Shown here one piece after another: positions 36,585 to 63,679 of a stretch of 64,000 nt of DNA. Positions within the stretch are counted from its first letter, which is position 1; every line of letters starts with the position of its first letter. The notes beneath the pieces were generated by a model. It worked only from the letters and a program-made list of their open reading frames with translations. It did not search any database and was not told the DNA's origin. This stretch comes from Dehalococcoidia bacterium (GTDB taxonomy: Bacteria > Chloroflexota > Dehalococcoidia > Bin125): NCBI GenBank assembly GCA_022825855.1, contig JAJDWB010000009.1, forward strand, positions 186,001 to 250,000. The letters run 5' to 3'. A program made the translations under genes and the position numbers.

Positions 36585-36651
36585 ATTGCCAACTCACCCC
36601 AGATCCGGGTCGCCCTCTCCCGTCACCCCCAACACACCACAAACCCCCAAC

Positions 36652-36673
36652 CGAACGCCCGTACGCATACAAT
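36652..36673 (+). promoter_or_regulatory. Orphan promoter with LexA-like dyad (copy A)
   Basis: CGAACGCCCGTACG at 36652-36665, then TACAAT at 36668-36673. This is nearly the same sequence as the terminase promoter at 55126-55147, extending upstream through a C-rich tract and AACACACCAC. In this copy the second half-site is GTAC, not GTTC. No clear -35 is seen. Confidence 0.6.
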
Positions 36674-36712
36674 CAACAACACCCAACCACCCACACAACC
36701 CAGGAGCCCCAC

Positions 36713-36805
36713 ATGAAACCCAGCATTCCCCAACCCCACCTACCCCCACGCCAACAAATCTTACCCACATCTGACCTCAACCAGACAAAATCCGACCGGA
36801 TCTGA
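36713..36805 (+). CDS. Tiny ORF after the orphan promoter (uncertain)
   Basis: An ATG with CAGGAG 7-8 nt upstream opens a 30-codon frame (MKPSIPQPHLPPRQQ start). It is Pro/Gln-rich and matches no protein I know. The stretch 36585-36898 is otherwise gene-free, unusually poor in G on this strand, with several ATCTGAC repeats at about 36776-36818. The ORF may be a remnant or leader left behind by the promoter module. Confidence 0.25.
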   Translation: MKPSIPQPHLPPRQQILPTSDLNQTKSDRI

Positions 36806-36898
36806 CCAAATCTGACATCACCCAGCCCAAATCCCCCGCCCACACCACACTTTCGCGCATTCCAGCCCCAATTCACGCCACTTTCTGCCCATGCCGCC

Positions 36899-53293: not shown

Positions 53294-54724
53294 TCATGGG
53301 TCGGTCATCAGGGCGGCGCGGCCGAACTGGAGGGGGGTGTTCTTGATCCGGCGGGGCCTGAAGACTCTCGGCCGCTGGACGAGTTCGTGCATGTAGCGAT
53401 CGGCGTCGAGCAGGTCGTCGAGCTTCTTCACCGGCCTGGGACTCGCGCCCGACTCCTGCGCCCAGCGGTACTCGCGCATCCGCTCGGGGAACCGCTCGAG
53501 AGTGGGCGCGTAGAACGAGCGCGGCGGGTCGGCGGCCAGCCGGTCCTGCACCAGCGAGATGCCCCAGGCGACCGAGCCGTCGCCGCCGCGGCTGGGCACG
53601 ACGTCGATCCCCTGGCGGCGCTGATGGTCGATCCAGGCGCCCTGCGAGCGGTCGGCGCACCAGCGGATGCGGCCGAAGACCTGCCGGCAGCGCCGCTGCC
53701 ACTGCTCCAGGCGCTGGATCACGCCCTCGCCGCGCTCCTCGAACTCGTCCAGCCGAATCAGCACGTTGGGACCGCAGGCCGCGCGCGAGTCGGTGATCCC
53801 GGCGACGATCCCGGCGGTGTAGTGCGCGTCCTCCGACGGTCCGCCGAAGTCCAGCCCGCCGGCGTAGCGGACGAAGGGCGGCAGGGGACCGCTCCAGCGG
53901 TGCAGCCGAGGCTGGAAGCGGGCGTAGACCTGCCCGGCGAAGGCGTCGAAGCTGCCCTCGATGAAGCGCTCGACCCATTCGCCCCGGTGCAGGGCGCGCT
54001 GCTGCTCCGCGTAGTTGGGCGGCAAGTGCGGATTGTCGGCGATCCGCGCCGGGACGAAGACGACGCGGCCCTCGGCCAGCGCCAGCGACTGCTCGTCCAG
54101 CTCGCGCCGCACGAACCAGCGCTCGAACCAGCCCGGCCAGGGATTCGAGGCGGCCACGAACCAGCGCTGCTCCTGCGCCGGATGCCGCAGCCGCGTCAAC
54201 AGCATCTGCGCCGCCTCCTCCGCCACCTCCCCGGCTTCGTCGATCAGGACCGCGCCGTACTGCTGGGAGCCAAGGCCGGTCCAGTCGGAGAGATGGCGGA
54301 AGTTGACGGTCGACACCTGGCCGGGCGGCCACTTGGGCATGGCGAGCTGGACGAGGTTGGTGGGCTGCTGCTGGCGGCGGCGGATGAACTCAGGCGGGCA
54401 GACGGCGAAAAACTCGCGCATGGTGGTGGCGGAGAGATTGGTGAAGTCGTCGCGGGCGACGAGCACGTTGTTGCCCGGGTGCATGAGGGCCGCGTCGATG
54501 GCGAGTTCGACGATGGCCCGGGTTTTGCCGCCGCCCATGGCTCCGCCATACCCGACCAAGGCGAGGCCGGGCCTGGGGGCCAGGTTGAGCGCGTCGTACA
54601 GCTCGCGCTGCCGTGCCGTAGGAAAAAAACTGCGGAGGCCGTGGAGCGGGTGGCGCCCCTCGGCCCCGACCTCTCCCTCAGAGGGAGAGGAGGGATGCGG
54701 ATTAGGGTGGTTCGTCGTCGTCAT
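53294..54724 (-). CDS. Phage terminase large subunit
   Basis: The 476-residue ATPase/nuclease drives DNA into the empty head. Walker A is VGYGGAMGGGKTRAIVELAI, Walker B is YGAVLIDEAGEVAEE with the catalytic Glu, then the motif III-like WFVAASNPWPGW. The nuclease half has YAGGLDFGGPSEDAHYTAGI with acidic metal ligands. The first 20 residues (NPHPSSPSEGEVGAEG) are coded by a palindromic repeat at 54670, so the true start or N-terminus is uncertain. It overlaps the preceding small gene by 23 nt. Confidence 0.85.
   Translation of the reverse strand: MTTTNHPNPHPSSPSEGEVGAEGRHPLHGLRSFFPTARQRELYDALNLAPRPGLALVGYGGAMGGGKTRAIVELAIDAALMHPGNNVLVARDDFTNLSATTMREFFAVCPPEFIRRRQQQPTNLVQLAMPKWPPGQVSTVNFRHLSDWTGLGSQQYGAVLIDEAGEVAEEAAQMLLTRLRHPAQEQRWFVAASNPWPGWFERWFVRRELDEQSLALAEGRVVFVPARIADNPHLPPNYAEQQRALHRGEWVERFIEGSFDAFAGQVYARFQPRLHRWSGPLPPFVRYAGGLDFGGPSEDAHYTAGIVAGITDSRAACGPNVLIRLDEFEERGEGVIQRLEQWQRRCRQVFGRIRWCADRSQGAWIDHQRRQGIDVVPSRGGDGSVAWGISLVQDRLAADPPRSFYAPTLERFPERMREYRWAQESGASPRPVKKLDDLLDADRYMHELVQRPRVFRPRRIKNTPLQFGRAALMTDP
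54670..54690. repeat. Palindromic repeat at the terminase N-terminus
   Basis: CCTCTCCCT-CAG-AGGGAGAGG sits in frame near the start of the large terminase gene. It belongs with the copy in the fused CoA-transferase linker at 48486. Confidence 0.55.
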
Positions 54725-55088
54725 TGCTGCTCCCGTCTTCGTCTTCGGTTTCCGACTCCGACTCGGTGGTCGGTTCGCTCTCGCTGGTGCAGGCGCTGAA
54801 CATAGAGAGGTCGGTCAGGTCGACGCCGTCGAGCGCTTCGCAGCGTTCGTAGAACTCGCGAGTCGCGGGGTCGAGGTGCAGGTCGGCCTGCTGGGCGAAC
54901 CTCTCGGCGGTGAGCCGGGCGATCTGCTTGCCCTGCTCGTAGAGGCCGGTGATGCGAGCCATCATGCCCAGAGCCTTGATGCGGACGTGCGAGGGTCCAT
55001 TTGCGGCTTCGTGGGCGATGCCGGCCCTGATGGCGTCGGCGGTGTAAGGGACGGGCGGCTTGAGCTGAGTGGTTGCGGTGTCGGACAT
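54702..55088 (-). CDS. Terminase small-subunit-like protein
   Basis: The 128-residue protein starts MSDTATTQLKPPVPYTADAI and has ALGMMARITGLYEQGKQIAR and a helical ERFAQQADLHLDPATREFYE segment, then an acidic tail with ESESETEDEDGSS. Its position before the large subunit and overlap with it fit TerS, which binds phage DNA. No clear helix-turn-helix was seen, so the name rests on context. Confidence 0.5.
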   Translation of the reverse strand: MSDTATTQLKPPVPYTADAIRAGIAHEAANGPSHVRIKALGMMARITGLYEQGKQIARLTAERFAQQADLHLDPATREFYERCEALDGVDLTDLSMFSACTSESEPTTESESETEDEDGSSNDDDEPP

Positions 55089-55125
55089 TGGGTGAACTCC
55101 TGTTCTTGGTTGTGTCAGGAGATCG

Positions 55126-55147
55126 ATTGTATGTGAACGGGCGTTCG
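55126..55147 (-). promoter_or_regulatory. Terminase promoter with LexA-like dyad (copy B)
   Basis: On the minus strand CGAACGCCCGTTCA (55147-55134), two bases, then TACAAT (55131-55126); the ATG is at 55088 with ACAGGAG before it. The dyad is CGAAC-N4-GTTC, as in LexA boxes of Gram-positive and related bacteria. The AACACACCAC and C-rich stretch upstream are shared with copy A at 36.65 kb. There is no -35 consensus. Confidence 0.65.
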
Positions 55148-55239
55148 GTGGGGGGCGGTGGTGTGTTGTCGGGTTGACTTGGGGGGGGAGGCGGAGAGCC
55201 TAGTCGTCTGTCTGGCATACTGGAGCGGAGGAGCGTGCG

Positions 55240-62536: not shown

Positions 62537-63679
62537 TTAACGGCTCACGGCGGGTCGTAGCGCGCCGTCGGCGATCTCGAAGGAGGCGGCGAGATCGCCG
62601 GCGGCGATCGGCACGACGGCGGGGTCGGCGCTGGTCAGGATGACCTGTGCCATCGCCGAGACCGCGCCGGCGGTGCGCTCGCGCCGCTCGGGATCGAGCT
62701 CGCTGAAGACGTCGTCGAGCAAGAGGATCGGCGCGTCGCGGTCGCTGGCGCGCAGGTACTCGGCCTCGGCCAGGCGCATGGCCAGGACTGCGGCGCGCTG
62801 CTGGGCTCGCGAGGCGAAGTTGGCGGCGGGCCGACCGTCGAGGTCGATCAAGAGATCGTCGCGGTGCGGTCCGACGCTGGTCGAGCCGCGAGCCAGGTCG
62901 CGGGCGCGAGACTCGGGCAGCGACGGATCGTCGGCGGGGGCGTAGGAGAGGGTCAACGCCTCGCTCGGTTCGTCGGCGGCGCGCAGGGCCTGGTGGCTGC
63001 GCTCCGCCTGCTCCGAGAGGGCTTGAGCCGCTTCGGCGCGGGCTTGCCAGATCGGGGTCGCGGCGGCGGCGAGCAGCTCGTCCCACTGGTCCAGTTCCTG
63101 CTCGCGGGCGCGTCCCTCGGCGATCCGCTTGAGCAGCGCGTTGCGCTGGCTCAGGGCTCGCTGGTAACGGCTGAGATGGGCGGCGTGGGCGGGCGCGAGC
63201 TGGCCGATGGCGACGTCAAGGTAGCGGCGGCGCAGGGCGGAGCCGCCGGTCAGCAGCTCGATGTCCTGAGTGGTGAACTGGACGGCGCGGATCGCGCCGA
63301 GGGCGTCGCCGGCGCGCCGGGCGACGCCGTTGACGCGGATGCGCTTGGAGGTCAGCGGCGCGCCGCTGCGCTGTCGGGCGCCTCCGGCGGCGCCGCCGCT
63401 GCGGGCGGCGAGCGCGATCTCGACCTCGACCGGTTCGTCGCGGACGAGCGCCGAGCCGGCGATGCGGGCGATCTGCGGTAGGGGCGCGGACCAGCGGATC
63501 AGCTCGCCCTCAGTCTGGGCGCGGGTCGAGCGCAGCGCGGCGAGCATGTAAATCGCCTCGACCAGGTTGGATTTGCCGGCGGCGTTGGCGCCGCTGATCA
63601 GCGTGACGCCGGGCGGCAGGTCGAGCTGGAGGTCGGTCCAGGATCTGAAGTTGGCGAGTTGGACTCGGGTCAGGTGCAC
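62537..63679 (-). CDS. recF: DNA replication and repair protein RecF
   Basis: RecF helps load RecA at single-strand gaps. The ATPase Walker A is SGANAAGKSNLVEAIYML at the N-terminus, the signature follows late, and the Walker B is APILLLDDVFSELDPERRER. The 380-residue length is right. It converges with the small zinc-ribbon gene at 3 nt. Unlike many genomes it is not beside dnaA or dnaN in this window. Confidence 0.93.
   Translation of the reverse strand: MHLTRVQLANFRSWTDLQLDLPPGVTLISGANAAGKSNLVEAIYMLAALRSTRAQTEGELIRWSAPLPQIARIAGSALVRDEPVEVEIALAARSGGAAGGARQRSGAPLTSKRIRVNGVARRAGDALGAIRAVQFTTQDIELLTGGSALRRRYLDVAIGQLAPAHAAHLSRYQRALSQRNALLKRIAEGRAREQELDQWDELLAAAATPIWQARAEAAQALSEQAERSHQALRAADEPSEALTLSYAPADDPSLPESRARDLARGSTSVGPHRDDLLIDLDGRPAANFASRAQQRAAVLAMRLAEAEYLRASDRDAPILLLDDVFSELDPERRERTAGAVSAMAQVILTSADPAVVPIAAGDLAASFEIADGALRPAVSR

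Follow-up and report, generated by a model that had tools for sequence, protein, structure and literature searches.

What are two almost identical promoters, each with a LexA-like dyad, doing within one 64-kb stretch of a Dehalococcoidia genome, where one of them stands before a terminase cassette and the other was described in the first-pass annotation as an orphan? The genome is assembled as 2.82 Mb in 22 contigs, and the stretch analysed here (64,000 nucleotides, hereafter the window) lies within contig 13. The dyad had been read as a LexA box that would couple terminase expression to DNA damage. We consider it probable that both sites are LexA operators within a genus-restricted, LexA-controlled network of terminases, HTH genes and repeat arrays. 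The features concerned are as follows.

53294–54724, minus strand: terminase large subunit (phrog_2, Terminase_3/Terminase_6N)
54702–55088, minus strand: gene in the small-terminase position, 128 aa, with an acidic C-terminus and no family match over the curated cut-off
55094–55105, minus strand: GAACAGGAGTTC, a second perfect dyad, which overlaps the ribosome-binding site of the small-terminase-position gene
55126–55147, minus strand: promoter core of the terminase cassette, with a perfect dyad GAAC-N4-GTTC at 55135–55146 and the −10 TACAAT at 55126–55131
36652–36673, plus strand: promoter core of a dispersed element, with the dyad GAAC-N4-GTAC at 36653–36664 and the −10 TACAAT at 36668–36673
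36702–36805, plus strand: ribosome site AGGAG (36702–36706) and an open reading frame of 30 codons (ATG at 36713)
36716–36819, plus strand: 10-bp repeat array, with clear CTGAC units at 36769–36819, the 18-mer discussed below included (match to the R1 model at 36649–36849, 113 bits)
36820–36879, plus strand: tail of the element, homologous to the 3′ coding part of HTH genes

Both promoters lie exactly where, and on the strands on which, they had been placed. The terminase-side core, CGAACGCCCGTTCACATACAAT (55126–55147), and the second core, CGAACGCCCGTACGCATACAAT (36652–36673), are identical at 20 of 22 bases, and a longer local alignment gives 43 identities in 51 columns with two gaps, close to the likeness of 40 in 46 originally proposed. 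The description as near copies is borne out, although the dyad is perfect at the terminase site alone (GAAC-N4-GTTC) and reads GAAC-N4-GTAC at the other; and the distance from dyad to TACAAT, given before as two or three bases, is three at both. With up to three mismatches allowed, the pattern CGAACGCCCGTNCNNATACAAT occurs in the window at these two sites only (shuffles, 0.01), and chance alone would not be expected to produce this likeness in the promoter pattern. Within the window, the plain dyad shows no enrichment when one mismatch is permitted (7 sites vs 4.05 expected). The second perfect dyad (55094–55105), which is 41 bp from the first and is present at the copies L010 and L023 too, could be a further operator, or no more than the ribosome site itself.

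Across the whole genome, the dyad combined with the −10 (pattern CGAACNNNNGTNCNNATACAAT) occurs 11 times exactly and 35 times within two mismatches, against 0 for the reversed control, whereas the strict dyad GAAC-N4-GTTC alone is found at 27 sites, the same number as its reversed-pattern control. A genome-wide scan of the kind suggested in the first-pass annotation returns enrichment for the composite promoter and none for the bare dyad. The window’s two promoters are 2 of these 35 family members. Twenty-nine of the matches head arrays, 22 leading into CTGAC units and seven into other units (CGAAC, CCTGAA or CCAACC), and the remaining six head small genes resembling the gene that precedes the terminase, one match (C16:66140) being classed solely through its R1 model match; reading of the downstream DNA found an unrelated gene behind none of the 35. 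The so-called orphan therefore keeps its position but loses its orphan status, as it heads a dispersed element of ~220 bp. Assembly breaks fall at copies of the terminase or small gene (contig starts C13:62, C14:62 and C20:161, and contig end C22:470783), and the copy numbers are therefore lower bounds.

Is the dyad read by LexA? The genome encodes a LexA with a full-length TIGR00498 match (149.7 bits) and one RecA, and PF01726 is found in 15 of 15 genomes of the genus, in 14 over the cut-off. The strict patterns miss the lexA and recA boxes of this genome; a degenerate form, GNAC-N4-GTNC, is visible in the promoter alignment of the 15 genomes. It is present at 14 of 15 lexA promoters (reversed pattern, 0/15; shuffle rate, 0.038), and all 15 recA promoters carry GCAC-N4-GTTC (reversed pattern, 0/15; shuffle rate, 0.024), these 15 genomes being of one genus, such that the footprints partly reflect shared ancestry. 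Ten of the lexA boxes are perfect GAAC-N4-GTTC and four have GTAC, the genome under study having GTAC-N4-GTTC; the sole lexA promoter outside GNAC-N4-GTNC, in genome G013, has GAAC-N4-ATTC. The four inner bases of the boxes vary across the 15 genomes. The degenerate forms at the element promoters (GAAC-N4-GTGC, -GTAC and -GTCC) are those of the lexA and recA boxes.

A lack of the dyad at SOS genes such as recA and lexA had been named beforehand as the observation that would speak against LexA. No such lack was found, GNAC-N4-GTNC standing before both genes; the strict dyad, on the other hand, is at par with its control genome-wide, and no recognisable repair gene was found behind it at the 15 sites examined of the 27. 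The LexA reading of the dyad is supported by these promoters, and LexA control of the family appears likely. Since the dyad stands at the lexA and recA promoters, the terminase genes are likely to be coupled to DNA damage as well. A LexA box of the GAAC-N4-GTTC form has reportedly been seen in Dehalococcoides, green non-sulfur relatives, a report that our literature search did not find. The form has been described for Firmicutes and Actinobacteria, and the motif here agrees with it (PMC3323433). The Gram-positive LexA/SOS regulon is alike in having a LexA-family repressor, a dyad at lexA and recA, and operators that overlap promoters. It is unlike the present case in two respects. First, the lexA and recA boxes of this genome are degenerate in one half (GTAC and GCAC). 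Second, the targets seen here are mostly a multi-copy family of terminases, HTH genes and arrays, not repair genes.

A few observations touch on the same subject. The divergent intergenic region before lexA (L045) has a dyad, TTCGTACATCTACGAA, at a distance of about 240 bp from lexA; as such it is not conserved in other lexA promoters. The window contains a DNA-repair gene at 62537–63679 (minus strand) with SMC-type ATPase matches in PHROGs, which we take to be RecF-like. A PafBC-like activator motif was considered and set aside, its spacing to the −10 being unsuitable.

Rather than LexA, a regulator belonging to the element family, such as an HTH autorepressor, might bind the operator; it would also read the GAAC-N4-GTTC-like sites at lexA and recA. 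HTH genes do carry the operator at their own promoters, as an autorepressor would: the match is exact at 13 of 25 and within one mismatch at another eight (exact shuffle rate, 0.012; L159 and L162, without upstream sequence, were left out), and the other four are no better than two mismatches, L177 having a misplaced start and a site seen on rereading. Some copies have a further dyad, GTCG-N4-CGAC, ~31 bp before the operator (6 of 30 sites in this genome exact, 4 more with one mismatch); it is possibly the site of another regulator, which may thus be involved. However, the operator form at lexA and recA is common to nearly all 15 genomes, including G003, G004, G007 and G013, in which our searches found neither arrays nor the HTH family (the latter was found in 10 of the 15). 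We regard control by a regulator of the family’s own as quite improbable, and LexA as the preferred reader of the operator.

The element that the second promoter heads consists of promoter, ribosome site, ATG, 10-bp repeat array and conserved tail. When 20 CTGAC-class elements of this genome are aligned, operator, −10, Shine–Dalgarno sequence, ATG, 10-bp units and tail follow in order, with an invariant C at nearly every 10-bp step and an 18-mer, TCTGACCAAATCTGACAT, identical in all 20; the larger length differences amount to about whole units. Ribosome site and ATG are conserved across the family, the encoded peptide far less so. A sequence-only model of the element, R1, has 35 matches in this genome (E up to 0.01) and, under stricter filters, matches in 10 of the 14 other genomes of the genus and in none of 26 genomes of other genera; a CTGAC-pattern scan of named species genomes gave ten stretches, of which eight lie in MAGs of Dehalococcoidia. 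Coding constraint was rejected as the cause of the array, as a period of 10 is not a multiple of 3; in addition, the array follows the stop codon in the HTH genes L163 and L169. A phage origin of the arrays was likewise rejected, the sole exact viral match being judged a chance match within a coding stretch. The CTGGAC unit has no match in the viral sequences searched.

An array that lies downstream of promoter and start codon, in sense direction in all copies read, could act in RNA, for instance in short regulatory transcripts whose repeats load Rho (rut) or bind a protein. Units of the CTGACCAAAT class are rich in C, and there is no RNA structure, RNAalifold having found no pair in the elements. 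This reading does not sit well with a C:G balance that differs by unit class, TTGGACATGA having more G than C, against a rut site (which we rejected on the TTGGAC class, with G 3 and C 1 per unit), nor with the 10-bp period common to all classes, which fits helical phasing in DNA. Action in RNA thus seems distinctly unlikely, and a role of the arrays as DNA is preferred.

The HTH genes provide a link between element and protein. In one R1 match in this genome (L088), the array falls within the coding sequence of an HTH gene, in its 3′ portion. In 25 HTH-gene 3′ regions (leaving out loci L159, L172, L173 and L184) the best repeat lag is 10 in 16, 20 in four, 11 in one and another in four, vs a best lag of 10 in none of the 25 corresponding 5′ regions. 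The tails of nine of ten HTH genes outscore all 500 shuffles against a profile of 39 element tails; the failing one, L166, was probably cut at the wrong place. With their tails homologous to those of HTH genes, the dispersed elements therefore look like HTH genes minus the HTH part. In addition, CTGGACAAAT replaces CTGACCAAAT in most elements seen of G002, G005, G009, G010, G011 and G012, and among the loci fetched the HTH genes of G012, G005 and G010 have the CTGGAC unit where the gene of this genome has CTGACC. Genome G006 has both unit kinds, and the genome under study has a minor CTGGAC copy; L168 is an exception among the CTGGAC-type genes, with mostly CGGGAC units, and other HTH paralogues have CGAAC, CCTGAA or TTGGAC units. 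The parallel change of unit in HTH genes and dispersed elements looks like protein/site co-evolution.

What the HTH protein might be was approached by profile and fold. Its AlphaFold2 model has an HTH followed by a long helix (80–128), and the fold search gave no match at E ≤ 0.001. Among eight HTH proteins, none matched small-terminase profiles over the cut-off, the matches being mostly to generic HTH families (one protein had Terminase_5 at E 0.0032, under the cut-off, and one phrog_7067 at E 0.045), and the protein was found in none of the phage records searched. A reading of the HTH proteins as small terminases thus gained no support from profiles or folds.

If the elements are HTH genes without the HTH part, they could be non-autonomous mobile repeats, that is, MITE-like internal deletion copies of HTH genes mobilised by some enzyme, with promoter and array retained for mobility; such a reading is compatible with LexA control. 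The make-up of the element (HTH-gene promoter, start, array and tail) and a copy number that varies strongly by species, 35 here vs 7 in G001, are what it would lead one to expect. Bacterial MITE-like repeats are similarly short, dispersed and devoid of the coding part of the parent gene. Unlike them, the elements here appear constrained at orthologous sites in operator, ribosome site, ATG and array. At least five elements are orthologous between this genome (G000) and G001, the window’s element included, for which one flank is matched. Across four pairs that were aligned, again with that of the window, the operator is conserved at 28 of 28 positions (seven each) and the −10 at 21 of 24, but the leader at 58 of 100, a comparison biased towards agreement, since best match was used to place the promoter. 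Among the G001 stretches examined there were occupied orthologues only and no empty sites. Furthermore, an unsystematic look noticed no terminal inverted repeats or target duplications. Mobile repeats are for us a possible but rather doubtful account of the elements.

Turning to the terminases, relatives of the large subunit are found in 14 of the 15 genomes, and the operator and −10 stand before 15 of 26 cassettes with at most one mismatch (eight exactly; reverse strand, 3/26; shuffles, 0.08), two or more mismatches being found at the other 11; the 26 are the distinct terminase loci with enough upstream sequence, with L146 and L152 (short) and L139 (duplicate) left out. Ordinary prophage remnants with an SOS-box promoter, in which the arrays would be decaying, functionless repeats, might give a similar picture. 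SOS-controlled prophage promoters are common, and the terminases are of phage type, with 44–47% identity to copies on viral contigs. However, among the 20 window ORFs given to PHROGs, several of which may not be real genes, the large terminase was the only packaging or structural gene, a cross-match of the RecF-like ATPase apart, and no capsid or portal family was seen among the window ORFs tested. Decay also fits poorly with an 18-mer identical in 20 of 20 diverged copies, and with units that change in step in a species’ HTH genes and its dispersed elements. Prophage remnants are therefore an improbable explanation, and the LexA-controlled network is retained.

The DNA itself displays the operators, the shared array units, the homology of the tails and the conservation in orthologues; LexA binding and induction at these promoters we infer. 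LexA, sitting on GNAC-N4-GTNC in the spacer between −10 and −35, would keep the promoters off, and DNA damage would open them through RecA-stimulated self-cleavage of LexA. From the open terminase site the small-terminase-position protein and the large terminase would be made, and from the open site at 36652 a short transcript of the dispersed element, in which the HTH coding part of an HTH gene appears to be missing while its promoter, start codon, 10-bp array and tail are kept. An HTH oligomer might then read one 10-bp unit per helical turn, and the HTH protein might bind the dispersed arrays as well as the one within its gene. More tentatively, the HTH–array complex and the terminase could together form a packaging-initiation (pac-like) complex. 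The network is perhaps, then, a domesticated packaging (pac-like) system. In its fullest form, this would be packaging triggered by SOS, in which LexA releases several terminase cassettes along with the HTH proteins, each of these proteins reads an array found in its gene and at tens of chromosomal sites, species-specific units keep the sets apart, and the chromosome of damaged cells is packaged or cut from fixed points, the arrays being pac-like sites of a gene-transfer-agent-like or satellite-like system. Taken as a whole, we consider that scenario unlikely.

Known systems offer parallels. LexA control of a small terminase is already known from staphylococcal islands, and Ubeda 2007 is said to be the primary paper for such control of SaPI operon I. 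This operon, which comprises terS and capsid-remodelling genes, is described as LexA-controlled in a further source (PMC5052747). A small-terminase(-position) gene behind a LexA-type promoter is common to both; the present case differs in its two-gene cassette with the large terminase, in several copies, and in its dozens of arrays, and, in contrast to SaPI, no integrase, replication or capsid genes were seen beside the cassette among the 20 window ORFs given to PHROGs. The pac site of SPP1 spans the promoter and the beginning of terS and has direct repeats; the HTHs of a small-terminase ring are about one DNA turn apart, such that ~100 bp could wrap around it, and the SF6 DNA-binding domain shows little sequence specificity (PMC4737164). 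Here too, HTH genes contain or adjoin ~100 bp made up of 10-bp units. Unlike the SPP1/SF6 case, the units are strongly conserved, occupy the 3′ portion of the gene and are dispersed over the chromosome. With profile and fold tests of the HTH proteins giving no small terminase, we would treat the resemblance to SPP1 pac and to SaPI as likeness, not membership.

New here would be a LexA switch acting on an entire dispersed family, and this in a genus of Chloroflexota that is known from metagenome-assembled genomes; in one genome, a LexA-type switch appears to stand on terminase cassettes, HTH genes and ~30 array elements. A search for literature on SOS terminases in Dehalococcoidia, LexA-box repeats and domesticated Chloroflexota terminases gave no matching title or abstract within a coverage that mostly leaves out subscription journals. 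If the arrays start packaging, the family would amount to a chromosome-wide DNA-export system under SOS control.

Finally, some arrays and matches stand apart from the family described above. A search of defence families gave one weak match, to mad1 (E 0.0017). Arrays of the CCTGAAAAAA class (L013, L027, L241 and L242) have short inverted repeats downstream, e.g. CCAGTAAAACACTGG. At L086, L122 and L125, arrays of the same class as those of the family lie behind the promoter ATGTTCTGGTANGATC or a close form of it, without the LexA-type operator, and at L089, L090 and L091 arrays lie behind a third promoter type, GTAGAATNAACGTACC, that of L091 directly after a PIN-domain-like gene.
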